From Jatrophihabitans endophyticus (GTDB lineage Bacteria; Actinomycetota; Actinomycetes; Mycobacteriales; Jatrophihabitantaceae): a DNA stretch of 64,000 nucleotides. Position 1 is the first letter of the stretch. The number at the start of each line of letters is the position of its first letter. Below, one piece after another: positions 22,250 through 58,119 of the stretch. A program made the translations under genes and the position numbers. The stretch spans positions 1-64,000 of the forward strand of contig NZ_FQVU01000002.1 of NCBI RefSeq assembly GCF_900129455.1, given 5' to 3'. Under the pieces are notes generated by a model that saw nothing but the letters and a program-made list of their open reading frames with translations, did not search any database and was not told the DNA's origin.

Positions 22250-23262
22250 GCGCCGCCCGCCCCGGCGTCGCTCGCGACGGCGCCGTCCACCGCCGCGAGG
22301 ATCCTGGTGGCGGCCTGGTCCGGCGTGAGCCGTTCGGCCCGCACGGCGTCCTCGGCGGCGGCGACCTCGTCGCGCACGCCCGGCCGGGCGAGCCGGGTCA
22401 GCAACCGGTCCCGCACCAGGTCGCGGGTCCACGCGACGAGCTGCTCGCTGCGCTTGCGGCCGAGCCCGTCACGCTCCTCGAGCCACGCACGGTGGCGTTC
22501 GACGTGCTGCCAGACGCGATCGAGGTGCAGGTCGTGCAGGCCGCTGCAGGTGACGACGGGCGTCTGCCAGTCGTCCTCGCCGTCGCGGAGGAACCGCAGC
22601 GCCGCCGACAGCTCCCGGCCGGCCCGTTCGGACTCGGTCTCGTGCTGCTCGTCGGCCTTGTTGACGGCGATGACGTCGGCGAGCTCGAGGATGCCGCGCT
22701 TCATGCCCTGCAGCTGGTCCCCGGTGCGGGCCAGGGTGAGGAACAGGAACGTGTCGACCATGTCGGCGACGACGTACTCGGACTGGCCGACGCCGACGGT
22801 CTCGACGAGCACGACGTCGTAGCCGGCGGCCTCCATGACCAGCATGGTCTCCCGCGTCGCCTTCGCCACCCCACCGAGCGTGCCCGCGGACGGGGACGGT
22901 CGGACGAACGCGTTCTCGTCGGCGGCGAGGCGGGCCATGCGCGTCTTGTCGCCGAGGATCGACCCGCCGGTGCGTCCGGACGACGGATCGACCGCGAGGA
23001 CCGCCACCCGGTGCCCGTCGGCGATCAGGTTGACGCCGAGCTGGTCGATGAACGTCGACTTGCCGACACCCGGGACGCCGGTGATGCCCACCCGCCGCGC
23101 ACCGCCGGTGTCGGGGAGCAGCCCGGCCAGCAGCTCCTGCGCGCGCTCGCGGTGATCCGCCCGCCGGGACTCGACGAGGGTGATCGCCCGCGCGACCGAC
23201 GCCCGCCGCCCCGCCCGGACGCCGTCGGCCAGCGCCCCGACGTCCACCGGTCGCGCGCTCAC
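22237..23262 (-). CDS. meaB: MeaB-type GTPase, methylmalonyl-CoA mutase chaperone
   Basis: G3E-family GTPase (ArgK/MeaB) that protects and reloads the B12 cofactor of methylmalonyl-CoA mutase; 341 residues. Walker A GITGVPGVGKSTF near 60, the SxGGSILGDKTRM switch region, ETVGVGQSE (Walker B/G3) and VNKAD (G4). The GTG start at 23262 lies inside the first unit of the CTGGCGAC repeat array, whose complementary strand also supplies the AGG of its ribosome-binding site. It is directly downstream of mutB in the same direction, so mutA-mutB-array-meaB is one functional unit. Confidence 0.93.
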   Translation of the reverse strand: MSARPVDVGALADGVRAGRRASVARAITLVESRRADHRERAQELLAGLLPDTGGARRVGITGVPGVGKSTFIDQLGVNLIADGHRVAVLAVDPSSGRTGGSILGDKTRMARLAADENAFVRPSPSAGTLGGVAKATRETMLVMEAAGYDVVLVETVGVGQSEYVVADMVDTFLFLTLARTGDQLQGMKRGILELADVIAVNKADEQHETESERAGRELSAALRFLRDGEDDWQTPVVTCSGLHDLHLDRVWQHVERHRAWLEERDGLGRKRSEQLVAWTRDLVRDRLLTRLARPGVRDEVAAAEDAVRAERLTPDQAATRILAAVDGAVASDAGAGGAQPS

Positions 23263-23364
23263 TGGCGACCTCGTGGGTTGACTGGTGACCTTCGCGCCGA
23301 CTGGCGACCTGTAGGTCGCCAGTCGGCTGCGAAGTCGCCAGTCAACGTGGGACGTCGCCAGTCA
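23259..23364. repeat. CTGGCGAC fold-back repeat array A (6 units)
   Basis: Three direct units on the plus strand (23259-23271, 23279-23291, 23298-23310; core GACTGGCGACCT, one with a C-to-T change) are followed, after a 2-base loop, by three inverted units (23313-23325, 23332-23344, 23352-23364). The period is 19-20 bases and the 5-7 bases between units differ. The centre is a 13-bp perfect stem, and the halves pair imperfectly over about 50 bases. The array fills the mutB-meaB gap exactly: the outermost inverted unit contains the mutB TGA, and the outermost direct unit contains the meaB GTG. It matches the larger array at 56235-56453. Confidence 0.85.
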
Positions 23365-54300: not shown

Positions 54301-55118
54301 AGGGTCGGGTCGCGCTGTTCGACGTGCACGAGCCGGCCCACCCGGCCGTCCTCGGGCACGTGCTGCAGGCGCTGCGGTCGGGCTCGCTGGTCGAGTCCCT
54401 GACGTGGTCGCCGGACGGTCGGCTGCTCGCCGTCGGGGGCGACGACGACTCCGTGCGCCTGCTCGACGTCCGCGATCCGGCCCGCCCGCGGCAGGTCGCC
54501 ACCGTGATGACCGGCGGGCTGGTGCTCAACACCGCGATCAGCCCCGACGGGCGATACCTGGCCGCGGCGAGCGCCGACGCGCACGGCTACGTGTGGGACA
54601 TCTCGACACCCGCCCGGCCGCGGCTGCGGGCACGGCTCGGCGGCTTCGCCAGCTACGCGTACTCCGTCGCCTTCGCCCCGGCGTCCGACCGGGTCGCCGT
54701 GGGCAGCGCCGATCACACGACGCGCGTGTGGCGGCTCGGCGGCGCCACGGTGGTCCCGGTGGGGCCGCGCCTCATCGGCTCGACCGGCTACAACTTCGCG
54801 CTGGCGTTCAGTCCCGACGGCACGCAGCTCGCCGTCGGCTCCTCCGACGACGCGGTCCGTCTCTACGACGTCGCGGGGACGCCGATCCGGGTGCCCGTCG
54901 AGACGCTCGAGTCGCTCGGCGGGAACGTCTTCGCCCTCGCCTGGACGTCCGACGGCACGCATCTGCTCGGCGCCGGCCGCGCGGCCTCGGTGGCCGTGTG
55001 GGACGTCGACGTCGCCGCGTACGGCGCCCGGCTGTGCACGCGGGTGGGCGACCCGATCACGCGCGACGAATGGGCGCTGTACGCGCCGGGAGTCCCGTAC
55101 GACCCGCCGTGCCGGTGA
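51309..55118 (+). CDS. XRE-HTH / nSTAND1 NTPase / transmembrane / WD40 protein
   Basis: 1269 residues. HTH at about 15-70 (LSIRELARRVGVPHATLGGWF in outline), then the PYPGLASFDVADADVFFGR entry typical of nSTAND1, Walker A GPSGSGKSSLL (about 146-156), Walker B VLVLDQFEELF (about 199-209), a helical region and one membrane segment (LFAAVAALALVAAGLAAYSL, about 525-545). About fourteen WD40-like blades follow (about 615-1245), enough for two propellers, with recurrent xDVRDPxRPR turns. STAND NTPases assemble on ligand sensing and are frequent in bacterial conflict and signalling systems. ATG with GGAGGGG upstream. The partner across the divergent promoter is the HTH-FW protein. Confidence 0.9.
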   Translation: MEAGSSPEPRDVLTRADLAAGLRTVRARADLSIRELARRVGVPHATLGGWFSGRNLPTPGQLTTLAAMLRECGLGQAEVAAWLDAARRVRATPARVTRPGSPYPGLASFDVADADVFFGRTSETEAVLARLVAGHEQPAGSLLAVIGPSGSGKSSLLRAGVAAAVLARDGAGSCVVTTPGDDPHRALDEALAELGSAGVLVLDQFEELFTATDDAATRAAFLDRLTTPPAGVRVVLGMRADFYARAAAEPALVTTLQHGQILLGPLGADALRDAVEGPARAVGVTVEPGLADLVLADLAPRDSPTAAHDAGSLPLLSHALLTAWELGTGRLLSVADYRTAGGLDGAVQRTAEQAYDSLDAAGRDAARDLFLRLVRIEDDVAVTRRRVAGAELAALLDADSALRGVLAEFVRRRLLTSGDGTVEISHEALLTAWPRLRDWIDTDRDGLRLSRTVTQAANEWDATDRDDALLLRGTRLAAAAELAASPTLRTRLNPLERDYVAAGTAARDAARHRARRRTRRLRRLFAAVAALALVAAGLAAYSLDARSHAATAEGRARDARDEAVSRQIAGRARELSAADPALAAQLALVAYREAPTDDARGALVDQSSRPAITRVLGSQGPTPLALSADGRLLAVGHADTGTVHLYRRTAAVPVALGVVPAADAARHQVFALAFSADGHTLAVGGEAHQVVRLWDVRDPGRPQPTGVVATGFTDDVQDVAFSPAGTLLAVAGTGPHPVRVWDVRDPSTPRALAVPAGAPAAGVTAMRVRFAPDGRRLAVAAKDGAVRTWRVAGTAVTGGRRAAPLGDALLAAAWSHDGRDLFVGDVGGKVVALDAATMRPRHAAVTVTTGNVNALAAAPGGAGFVAATSEGAVSQWSTVSWTALSSLGHPGPVTGVAYTPDGTTLLTTAADGTLRTYPASAGLPTDDSVYNLAASRDGRRLAVATSGTAGGLRLWDLRDPDRPRRMSPLVTMPAGSAPITGTVALRRDGAVVAAGNPEGRVALFDVHEPAHPAVLGHVLQALRSGSLVESLTWSPDGRLLAVGGDDDSVRLLDVRDPARPRQVATVMTGGLVLNTAISPDGRYLAAASADAHGYVWDISTPARPRLRARLGGFASYAYSVAFAPASDRVAVGSADHTTRVWRLGGATVVPVGPRLIGSTGYNFALAFSPDGTQLAVGSSDDAVRLYDVAGTPIRVPVETLESLGGNVFALAWTSDGTHLLGAGRAASVAVWDVDVAAYGARLCTRVGDPITRDEWALYAPGVPYDPPCR

Positions 55119-55124
55119 CGCGGC

Positions 55125-56207
55125 TCAGGCGGTCAGCCGCGCGTAGCCGGGCTTGACGACGGAGTTGATGATGGCGAGCCGCTCGTCGAAGCCGATGAAC
55201 GCGCTCTTCATCGCATTGACGGTGAACCACTGCAGGTCGGCCCAGGTGTAGTGGAAGGCCTCGGCGAGCAGCGTCAGCTCGCGGGTCATCGACGTCTGGC
55301 TCATCAACCGGTTGTCGGTGTTCACGGTGACCCGGAACTGCAGGCGCCGCAGCATCCCGATGGGGTGCTCCTCGATCGAGTTCGCCGCGCCGGTCTGCAC
55401 GTTGGACGACGGGCACATCTCCAGCGGGATGCGCTTGTCGCGCACGTACTGGGCGAGCCGGCCGAGCTTCCCGCCGGCGGTGATGTCGTCGACGATGCGC
55501 ACGCCGTGCCCGAGCCGGTCGGTGCCGCACCACTGGATTGCCTCCCAGATGGAGGGCAGCCCGAACGCCTCGCCGGCGTGGATGGTGAAGTGGGCGTTCT
55601 CGCGGCGCAGGTACTCGAACGCGTCCAGGTGCCGCGTGGGCGGGTAGCCCGCCTCGGCGCCGGCGATGTCGAAGCCGACGACGCCGTCGTCGCGGTAGCG
55701 CACGGCCAGCTCGGCGATCTCCAGCGAGCGGGCGGCGTGCCGCATGGCGGTCGCGATCGCGCCCACCCGGATCGTCTGCCCGGCGGCCGCCGCGGCGGCC
55801 TCTCCCTCGCGGAAGCCCGACAGCACGGCCTCGACGACCTGCTCCAGCGTCAGGCCGCCCTCGGTGTGCTGCTCGGGGGCCCAGCGGATCTCGGCGTAGA
55901 CGACGCCGTCGGCCGCGAGGTCCTCGACCGCCTCGCGCGCGACGCGGCGCAGCCCCTCGACCGTCTGCATGACGGCCACGGTGTGCGAGAAGGTCTCGAG
56001 GTAGCGCTCCAACGACCCCGAGGACGACGCGTCCCGGAACCAGGTCGCGAGCTCGTCCACGTCGGTGGTCGGCAGCGCCCGGTAGCCGATGCGCCCGGCG
56101 ATGTCGACGATCGTGCTGGGCCGCAACCCCCCGTCGAGGTGGTCGTGGAGCAGCACCTTGGGTGCCTGCCGGATGGTCTCGGCGCTGAGAGGTACGGGCA
56201 TCCTCAC
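55125..56207 (-). CDS. add: Adenosine deaminase
   Basis: (Deoxy)adenosine to (deoxy)inosine; 360 residues. Zinc ligands and catalytic residues in order: [12 protein letters not shown] (H-x-H), [11 protein letters not shown] (His and Glu), DRLGHGVRI and the [10 protein letters not shown] segment (the usual S-L-N-T-D-D-P is T-V-N-T-D-N-R here, so the second Asp of the DD pair is Asn). Start GTG 56207 or ATG 56201; neither has a clear ribosome-binding site. Last gene of the nucleoside operon, separated from deoA by the large CTGGCGAC repeat array. Confidence 0.93.
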
Positions 56208-56234
56208 ACCGTATCGACCCGCTCCCCCGCATCG

Positions 56235-56453
56235 TCACTGGCGACCTCGATGTTCACTGGCGACTTCGCATGTCGACTGGCGACCTCGGGGCCGACTGGC
56301 GACGTGGGGCCGACTGGCGACGTGGGGCCGACTGGCGACGTGGGGGCCGACTGGCGACCTTGCATGTTCACTGGCGACCTTCGGGCCGACTGGCGACCTA
56401 TAGGTCGCCAGTCGGCCCCGAAGTCGCCAGTCGACCTGGGAAGTCGCCAGTCA
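56235..56453. repeat. CTGGCGAC fold-back repeat array B (12 units)
   Basis: Nine direct units on the plus strand (A of the ACTGGCGAC core at 56237, 56256, 56276, 56295, 56313, 56331, 56350, 56370, 56389; period 18-20) are followed by three inverted units (cores ending near 56412, 56431 and 56451). The turn is a perfect 28-base palindrome centred at 56400/56401. Units 4-7 share the interunit GTGGGGCCG-type spacer and look recently amplified. The array occupies nearly the whole deoA-add gap, and the deoA TGA is part of the last inverted unit, just as mutB's stop is in array A. Confidence 0.88.
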
Positions 56454-57728
56454 GGCGATGCGGTCGAGGACGAGCTTGCGGGCGGGGGCGGTGTCGCCGA
56501 TCTCCCAACCGTCCTCGAGGGCGGCGAGGGCCCGCTCGAAGCGGACGGGCTCGTCGGCGTGCAGCTCCAGCAGCGGCTGGCCGGCGGTCACCTGGTCACC
56601 CGGCTTGGCGTGCAGGACGACACCGGCGCCGGCCGACACCGGGTCCTCCTTGCGGGCGCGACCGGCCCCGAGCCGCCAGGCGGCGACGCCGACGGCGAGC
56701 GCGTCGAGGCGGGTCAGCACCCCGGACGACGGTGCGGTGACGACGTGCGTCTCGCGGGCAGTCGGCAGCGGCGCGGTTGGGTCGCCGCCCTGCGCGGCGA
56801 TCATCGCGCGCCAGACGTCCATCGCCCGGCCGTCACGCAGGGCGTCCGCGGGGTCGGTGTCGATCCCGGCACCGGCGAGCATCTCGCGGGCGAGCGCGAG
56901 CGTCAGCTCGACGACGTCGGCCGGGCCGCCCCCGGCGAGCACCTCGACCGACTCGCGCACCTCGAGCGCGTTGCCGGCCGTCAGCCCGAGCGGGGTCGAC
57001 ATGTCGGTGAGCAGCGCGACGGTGTGGGTGCCCGCGGCCGTGCCGAGCGCGACCATGGTGCGGGCGAGCTCCGCGGCGTCGTCGCGGGACTTCATGAACG
57101 CACCCGTCCCGACCTTGACGTCGAGCACGAGCGCGGACGAGCCCTCGGCGATCTTCTTGCTCATGATCGAGGACGCGATGAGCGGGATCGCCTCGACGGT
57201 GCCGGTGACGTCTCGCAGCGCGTAGAGCTTGCGGTCGGCCGGCGCCAGCTCGGCACCGGCCGCGCAGACCACCGCGCCGACGTCGTCGAGCTGCGCGAGG
57301 AACTCGGCGTTGGTCAGCCCCGCCCGCCAGCCACGGATCGACTCCAGCTTGTCCAGCGTGCCGCCGGTGTGGCCGAGGCCGCGCCCCGACAGCTGCGGCA
57401 CGGCGGCACCGCACGCCGCGACCAGCGGCGCGAGCGGCAGCGTGATCTTGTCACCGACGCCGCCGGTGGAGTGCTTGTCCACGGTCGGCCGGGTGACCGA
57501 GCCCAGGTCCAGCCGCTCGCCGGACGCGATCATCGCCGCCGTCCAGCGCTCGATCTCGGGCATCGCCATGCCGCGCAGCAGGATGGCCATCGCCAGCGCC
57601 GACATCTGCTCGTCGGCGACGGCGCCGCGGGTGTAGGCGTCGATCACCCAGTCGATCTGGGCGTCGTCGAGCCGGCCGCCGTCGCGTTTGGTGCGGATGA
57701 CGTCGACGGCGTCGAACTGTTCGGCCAC
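56451..57728 (-). CDS. deoA: Thymidine/pyrimidine-nucleoside phosphorylase
   Basis: Thymidine (or deoxyuridine) + phosphate to base and deoxyribose-1-phosphate; 425 residues. Signatures: VIRTKRDGGRLDDAQIDW and AMAILLRGM near the N-terminus, the phosphate-binding KHSTGGVGDK, ARGLGHTGGTLDKLES-like segment (here SGRGLGHTGGTLDK) and DVKVGTGAFMK. GTG 57728 begins one base after the cdd stop, so the two are coupled. Downstream the repeat array starts on its own stop codon. Product enters DeoC after mutase action. Confidence 0.96.
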   Translation of the reverse strand: MAEQFDAVDVIRTKRDGGRLDDAQIDWVIDAYTRGAVADEQMSALAMAILLRGMAMPEIERWTAAMIASGERLDLGSVTRPTVDKHSTGGVGDKITLPLAPLVAACGAAVPQLSGRGLGHTGGTLDKLESIRGWRAGLTNAEFLAQLDDVGAVVCAAGAELAPADRKLYALRDVTGTVEAIPLIASSIMSKKIAEGSSALVLDVKVGTGAFMKSRDDAAELARTMVALGTAAGTHTVALLTDMSTPLGLTAGNALEVRESVEVLAGGGPADVVELTLALAREMLAGAGIDTDPADALRDGRAMDVWRAMIAAQGGDPTAPLPTARETHVVTAPSSGVLTRLDALAVGVAAWRLGAGRARKEDPVSAGAGVVLHAKPGDQVTAGQPLLELHADEPVRFERALAALEDGWEIGDTAPARKLVLDRIA

Positions 57729-57729
57729 C

Positions 57730-58119
57730 TCAGCCGAGGCTCTCGCGGCCGAAGGCGAGCGGCAGGACCTCGATCATCTGCTTGACGCCGTCGGGGGTGT
57801 CGACGAGCAGGTCGGGCCCACCGTGCTCCCACAGCAGCTGGCGGCACCGGCCGCACGGCATGAGGACGTCGCCACGCGCGTCCACGCAGGCGAAGGCGAC
57901 GAGCGAGCCGCCGCCGCTGCCGTGCAGTGCCGACACCAGCCCGCACTCGGCGCACAGTCCCACGCCGTAGGACGCGTTCTCGACGTTGCAGCCGGTGACG
58001 ATGCGGCCGTCGTCGACGAGGGCCGCACACCCCACCGGGTACTGCGAGTACGGCGCGTAGGCGTTGCCCATGGCCTGGAGGGCGGCACGCCGCAGCGTGC
58101 CCCAGTCGATGTCACTCAT
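57730..58119 (-). CDS. cdd: Cytidine deaminase
   Basis: (Deoxy)cytidine to (deoxy)uridine; 129 residues, tetrameric zinc form. Zinc/catalytic motifs: GLCAECGLVSAL (C-A-E) and MPCGRCRQLL (P-C-x2-C); the substrate region is YSQYPVGCAALVDDG and NVENASYG. ATG 58119, seven bases after the permease stop with AGGGG upstream. Acts on imported cytidine before DeoA. Confidence 0.95.
   Translation of the reverse strand: MSDIDWGTLRRAALQAMGNAYAPYSQYPVGCAALVDDGRIVTGCNVENASYGVGLCAECGLVSALHGSGGGSLVAFACVDARGDVLMPCGRCRQLLWEHGGPDLLVDTPDGVKQMIEVLPLAFGRESLG

Follow-up and report, generated by a model that had tools for sequence, protein, structure and literature searches.

The repeat array that lies between deoA and add in Jatrophihabitans endophyticus is probably a solo copy, enlarged by tandem amplification, of a palindromic repeat that is dispersed over the genome and has a cognate protein of AbiEi/DUF559 type, encoded between two further copies, an arrangement that is REPIN-like with a nuclease in the place of the transposase. 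Good support for the pairing of the gene with its palindrome comes from the existence of the repeat family, from its rigid anatomy, from bracketing with palindromes that are particular to each gene and from recurrence across the class. That the protein recognises and spreads its own palindrome is the most economical reading, which we infer from this pairing.

Results

The array and its neighbours

The window, i.e., the whole stretch of 64,000 nucleotides that was analysed, contains the following features:

56237..56451, no strand: expanded palindromic element with nine direct and three inverted ACTGGCGAC units (exact-word count)
56383..56418, no strand: perfect central palindrome of 36 bp with the core ACTGGCGASCTRYAGSTCGCCAGT
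56295..56358, plus strand: units 4-7 with near-identical spacers, a local tandem amplification
56451..57728, minus strand: deoA, thymidine phosphorylase, the upstream gene (NCBIfam search; homologs in 22 of 23 other genomes of the family)
55125..56207, minus strand: add, adenosine deaminase, the downstream gene (NCBIfam search)
23261..23362, no strand: the window's other member of the family, of the 3+3 form, with one left unit reading ACTGGTGAC

The 12 exact ACTGGCGAC units at 56237-56451, nine on the plus and three on the minus strand, agree with the nine direct and three inverted copies described in an earlier note on this DNA, which was also right about the near identity of units 4-7 including their spacers and about the two neighbouring genes (thymidine phosphorylase and adenosine deaminase by NCBIfam). 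The central palindrome, given there as 28 bases, is actually 36 bp long (56383-56418), and the statement that the array fills the intergenic space holds for 214 of the 243 bp of the deoA/add gap, with the extent corrected to 56237-56451, where the outermost unit touches the TGA stop of deoA and has one base in common with it (TGACTGGCGAC). The nearest named homologs of add belong to metagenome-assembled Pseudonocardiales (81%).

Exact ACTGGCGAC words occur 17 times in the window against 1.24 expected (the largest of 100 shuffles gave 6), and the five that are not in the array make up the cluster at 23261-23362. Unit pairs at the array spacing number 12 in the window, 10 of these in the array, and 0 in the shuffles. 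Outward from the centre, the units follow each other in steps of 19, 20, 19, 18, 18, 19, 20 and 19 bp on the left and of 19 and 20 bp on the right, and the transcribed strand of the array folds at -129.3 kcal/mol, far better than its shuffles (z -9.0).

The view of the earlier note that this is neither a CRISPR nor a simple terminator proved sound. CRISPR was rejected on the 9-bp units, the 9-12-bp spacers and the flips in orientation, and a simple terminator because there is no T-run; the search for intrinsic terminators (a G+C-rich hairpin and then a T-run) gave 0 sites in 56100-56600. A known Rfam RNA was set aside likewise, with 0 matches at the gathering score in 55000-58000, and the six matches at E ≤ 1, none of which attained the gathering score, included five to microRNA models. 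An attC-like reading was dropped by inspection.

The dispersed family in the J. endophyticus genome

The suggestion of a dispersed intergenic repeat family was borne out by a genome-wide search of the source genome of the window (G000; 4.48 Mb, 10 contigs), which contains 31 elements on 8 of the 10 contigs, all excised from 29 stretches (237 kb). All 68 spaced unit pairs of the genome fall within these elements, the reversed pattern gives 0, and the core ACTGGCGASCTRYAGSTCGCCAGT at ≤1 mismatch occurs 28 times, in 28 of the 31 elements. The commonest form has 3+3 units (13/31), and the deoA/add copy (9+3) is the longest. The first step of an arm is 19 bp in 62/62 arms and the second is 20 bp in 48/51. 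In 48 in-register arms, columns 1-8 of the unit are 96-100% conserved and the mid-spacer columns are near random, while the share of C at the ninth column declines from 96% in the outer unit through 85% to 48% in the inner one. The arm consensus terminates in YCGACTGG, beyond which the flank is variable. Only 1 of 136 exact units in the 237 kb lies outside the elements, and no target-site duplication was found (53 elements, P 0.61).

None of the 31 elements is entirely within a called gene, though the surroundings have a coding fraction of 0.906; overlaps are confined to five gene ends, which reach 54, 18, 1, 1 and 1 bp into an element. The 31 gaps that hold elements comprise 21 tandem, 5 convergent and 5 divergent ones, against 54, 5 and 21 among the 80 other gaps of at least 30 bp in the same stretches, so convergent gaps (5/31 vs 5/80) may be somewhat favoured. 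The classes come from a simple codon-usage gene caller, which overlooked the nuclease gene in locus L083 (see below); with this gene included, the counts are 22 tandem, 4 convergent and 5 divergent. The distribution relative to stop codons, which the earlier note had proposed to check, shows the element closer to the upstream stop in 17 of the 21 tandem gaps.

If elements were kept purely as hairpins, the spacers that face each other should covary, and the variable spacer columns of facing arms in G000 do not (P 0.61 and 0.67), so that hairpin pairing as the sole constraint was set aside. The innermost unit position does covary, with the same letter in 23/31 elements (12 C/C, 10 G/G, 1 T/T; 8 mixed), and together with the next column gives P 0.001; for the whole inner spacer P is 0.10, and similarity at the three centre columns is below that of the permutations. 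In most column groups of genome G016 (n = 8), permuted arms resemble each other more than matched arms do, and in G015 (n = 10), matched arms are the more similar in 1/5 column groups (P 0.03). Conservation of the unit sequence, of the spacing and of the central symmetry points to sequence-specific recognition.

The gene between two palindromes

A putative nuclease gene lying between two copies of the array's repeat escaped the earlier note, being outside the window: it is found at C2:668353-669204 (284 aa, no internal stop), on the same contig as the array and 612 kb from it. Comparison of element flanks showed that G000, G015 and G016 each have a gene enclosed by two elements; these genes are homologs of one another, and in all three genomes the unit of the gene's palindrome is that of the solo copies. 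In each of the three modules read, the palindromes enclose a single gene. As a side observation, further ACTGGCGAG-type units in 20-bp steps occur at ~5030-5160 of L083, in the space that separates the nuclease gene from the second of its flanking elements.

The 24 genomes of the family encode eight members above 130 bits, the G000 protein included, and all eight genes lie between two direct copies of a gene-particular palindrome (7/8 by a stricter, fixed rule, which takes a palindromic direct repeat on both sides at E ≤ 1e-5 and ≥40 bp). In G016, each of two genes has its own palindrome, and the solo copies likewise form two groups (8 and 2 read). In one of four genomes, G006, both solo elements have units unlike the palindrome of the gene. 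A second gene in G000 (C1:488839-489639, locus L280) has a different palindrome, with the unit CGAGTGGTCGC, of which the 237 kb yielded no solo copy, only one inverted pair that looks like chance. Among weakly related genes of the family, 5 of the 17 that could be tested are bracketed, and their palindromes are altogether different. Across the 24 genomes, element and close gene are both present in 4, the element alone in 3 (G001, G019, G020), the close gene alone in 2 (G002, G022) and neither in 15, which gives P 0.04, several of the assemblies being incomplete.

The encoded protein

AbiEi models (PADLOC) match 8/8 members at E ≤ 0.1 (best 4.9e-10; G000 protein 1.1e-8), the similarity being N-terminal. 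Neither Pfam nor NCBIfam gave a match for the G000 protein; 3/8 members match Pfam DUF559/MTES_1575 weakly (E ≤ 0.1, best 1.7e-4), L247 being above the DUF559 cut-off. E172, D205, E216, H222 and D231 are invariant in 8/8, and we take this motif of E, D, E, H and D residues to be what a restriction-type (DUF559/MTES_1575) nuclease fold would need. The nuclease assignment is one of homology and motif, because it comes from weak family matches and invariant residues, and the profile search of the PDB gave one match (E 0.42). The G000 protein thus likely combines an AbiEi-like N-terminus with a DUF559-type PD-(D/E)XK nuclease C-terminus, the latter assigned by way of its homologs.

Y1 transposases (PF01797, RAYT) were found in 0/24 genomes of the family at E ≤ 0.001, with 5/14 control genomes positive. 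No copy of the nuclease was found in viral contigs, and plasmids gave three weak matches (29.7-31.7%).

The same architecture with other units

The concern, raised in the earlier note, that the array might be unique to this assembly applies to the exact sequence, which is in no other genome searched, but not to the architecture, which six further genomes share with units of their own. The exact repeat was not found in 2 congeners, in 23 other genomes of the family, in viral contigs or in a genome-contig database (which possibly omits near relatives), and the core ACTGGCGASCTRYAGSTCGCCAGT at ≤1 mismatch occurs in 0/396 other genomes of the order sample. A looser unit pattern matches in 4/23 genomes of the family, those in G010 being a 10-bp tandem repeat and not an element. 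The general architecture pattern occurs in 7/24 genomes of the family (6/23 besides G000) and in 0/373 genomes of other families of the order, with 0 for the reversed control, and its sites and units are as follows:

G000: 26 sites, GACTGGCGAC
G016: 19 sites, GAGTGGCGAC or GAGTGGCGGG
G015: 18 sites, GAATGGGCAG
G020: 6 sites, GAGTGGTCAC
G001 (same genus as G000): 3 sites, GAGTGGCCAC or GAGTGGCTGN
G006: 2 sites
G019: 1 site, GAGTGGTCAC

Among 18 other deoA loci, inspected by eye and with a de novo scan, one has an element: in G020, of another genus, a 2+2 element with the unit CGAGTGGNCAC and the centre CTATAG lies 3' of deoA. The de novo architecture scan (708 kb) reported 31 loci, of which L181 alone was accepted, 13 shuffled loci being positive as well. 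The deoA/add junction of G006 (L197) carries four tandem 16-bp copies of GTCGACTGAGGCMGGG at the position of the array.

Co-divergence and history

The more alike two proteins are, the more alike their palindromes tend to be (Mantel r 0.45, P 0.0002, over 27 genes; 10 of 37 genes were dropped, having no usable arm), a relationship that is marginal among pairs across host families (r 0.12, P 0.051). For three G000 elements, the corresponding gap of another genus also carries an element, with two-sided synteny (L084/L257, L082/L256 and L092/L221), against about 0.25 expected for 35 sites (P 0.002, a rough value); in this comparison, L214, L217 and L215 have no element by pattern and two places are present twice (L204/L235 and L211/L226). 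The unit differs within each of the three orthologous pairs. Either the enzyme and its element thus evolved in concert at a fixed site or certain gaps were invaded more than once, and staying put fits these positions as well as movement does. The deoA element site is common to G000 and G020 on the single comparable side, and the module of G006 has its neighbourhood on one side in common with the second module of G000.

Signs of insertion come from G005, where the deoA-add junction is about 60 bp long and element-free, and from G019, where an element is read in frame in an apparent interdomain linker (L211 793-2172) of what we take, naming it from sequence, to be a dihydrolipoamide acyltransferase-like (E2) gene.

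Recurrence across the class

A profile built from the eight proteins matches 196/394 genomes of the class at E ≤ 1e-20. The class-wide set comprised 29 loci outside G000, the best of each genome, 28 of them with usable flanks. By the fixed rule, 20/28 testable homologs are bracketed, a proportion that does not extend to DUF559 genes at large because the loci were picked by similarity to a bracketed family, and 0/92 control genes are (add 0/77, deoA 0/15); at the laxer E ≤ 1e-3, 1/77 add genes has a repeat. Taken together, 27/36 (7/8 and 20/28) against 0/92 gives P 2.5e-20 (Fisher), where L280 was counted as a failure because its repeat is 26 bp long by the fixed rule (80 bp and 87.5% in the other flank test). 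L274 did not pass the fixed rule either.

When 346 genes of 600-1500 bp were scanned blind (800 kb, two genomes of the class), 3 had a direct repeat around them and 2 a palindromic one, namely the gene of an AbiEi/DUF559 protein and the adjoining fumarase gene, which shares one of its palindromes. These two genes are arranged as follows:

L342 11591-14149 (G407): three consecutive palindromes that bracket an AbiEi/DUF559 gene and then a fumarase gene

Solo copies of the repeat type number 2 in 400 kb of G407 and 0 in 400 kb of G557. The class homologs L298, L302, L313 and L318 have one in-frame stop each, as if decaying.

Discussion

To hypothesize, the protein would bind the units through its N-terminal domain, both in their array form and about the central dyad, and would nick or cut the palindrome, perhaps once it is extruded as a hairpin or cruciform in replication. 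Repair or transposition might then copy palindromes into new gaps and homogenise their units, solo elements would be non-autonomous copies or the scars of lost gene copies, and the foldback possibly alters the expression of deoA and add secondarily. The two roles offered in the earlier note fare differently: recognition by a protein fits best, and a primary role in mRNA processing is unsupported, given the absence of spacer covariation and the 5/31 elements in divergent gaps (21/80 among the controls).

Extended to the class, we lean towards the view, held slightly less firmly than that of the array itself, that each AbiEi/DUF559 nuclease owns a private palindrome, sits between two copies of it, spreads it intergenically and drives its concerted change, and that this system arose independently of REPIN/RAYT with a restriction-type nuclease and not a transposase. 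Our confidence is trimmed because the G000 protein has no family match, the units of G006 do not fit its gene and co-occurrence is loose.

An unlikely alternative, still to be taken seriously, is homing, in which the palindromes are independent sites, the nuclease cuts a solo one, and its gene recombines in and duplicates the site, so that solos would be targets and not products. Homing endonucleases of the Vsr fold exist, elements occupy orthologous gaps across genera, and the flanking copies of L266, L267 and L280 are 98.6, 98.6 and 87.5% identical; in G016, the flanking pairs (0.95 and 0.95) are also more alike than the solos (64-bp type, mean 0.84; 66-bp type, one pair, 0.83). However, the flanking pairs of G000 and G015 (0.80 and 0.83) are no more alike than the solos (means 0.84 and 0.81), and homing alone leaves 31 copies of one lineage-specific unit unexplained. 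AbiEi antitoxins bind inverted repeats of their own promoter, and the AbiEi-like N-terminus together with a palindrome copy upstream of each of the 8 genes could indicate an autoregulator whose dispersed copies form a regulon; this we consider improbable, since an equal copy is also found downstream of the gene, 21/31 elements are in tandem gaps (17/21 closer to the upstream stop) and 5 in convergent ones, and the invariant nuclease-type residues are left unexplained.

Marginally less probable again are transcription terminators or mRNA-stabilising intergenic hairpins. The strong fold (z -9.0), the proximity to gene 3' ends and the share of convergent gaps (5/31 vs 5/80) speak for them, but the T-run is missing, pairing of the spacers is not kept, 5/31 elements are in divergent gaps and the link to a nuclease gene goes unexplained. 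Rigidly spaced, sequence-conserved units on 8/10 contigs would also suit an array bound by a chromosome-organising protein, which is nonetheless very improbable, as the units differ among species, even within the genus (G001), and the sites bracket one particular gene.

The preferred reading, that of a nuclease-like protein with its own palindrome, gives a specific DNA partner to a widespread class of uncharacterised actinobacterial proteins, and genomes with two gene/palindrome pairs offer built-in mismatched controls. If movement is true, short repeats would spread by a transposase-free route. A search of the open-licence PMC literature found, in titles and abstract openings among the matches listed, no paper in which DUF559 or AbiEi genes are connected to palindromic repeats.

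Comparison with known systems

BOX, STAR and MIRU are modular intergenic repeats with variable numbers of short modules in arrays, and the present family resembles them in its variable counts of short modules and its intergenic arrays; it differs in the inverted plan round a central dyad and in the nuclease-like gene. The DNA uptake sequences of Neisseria and Haemophilus, too, consist of a short motif with lineage-specific dialects that occurs as inverted pairs near gene ends, as here, although in our family units are scarcely found outside arrays (1/136 exact, 237 kb). The likeness to AbiE toxin-antitoxin systems is in the N-terminus, similar to the AbiEi antitoxin, whereas here a nuclease-type domain follows and the palindromes of the three modules read enclose one gene each. 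MITEs are likewise short, palindromic and intergenic, but here no target-site duplication was found and the transposase search covered Y1.

The closest likeness is to REP/REPIN sequences and their RAYT, for which the literature describes palindromes dispersed intergenically, a cognate gene between two copies, several pairs per genome and tandem clusters (PMC3116915, PMC2817692, PMC3733652). All this is seen here as well: dispersed intergenic palindromes with the cognate gene between two copies, distinct gene/repeat pairs sharing a genome, and tandem clusters. The differences are that the partner here is AbiEi/DUF559-like and not a Y1 transposase, that there is no head tetranucleotide of the GTAG/GGAG type at the ends, that the arms consist of short repeated units in 19/20-bp steps, and that the gene is flanked by two whole palindromes, compared with two inverted REPs in the REPIN case. 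Some dispersed bacterial palindromes, e.g., CGTC repeats, apparently have no dedicated transposase (PMC3733652). Since the enzyme bears no relation to the known mobilisers of repeats with which we compared it, we regard the system as new in kind; more cautiously, it could be classified as a variation on the REPIN principle.
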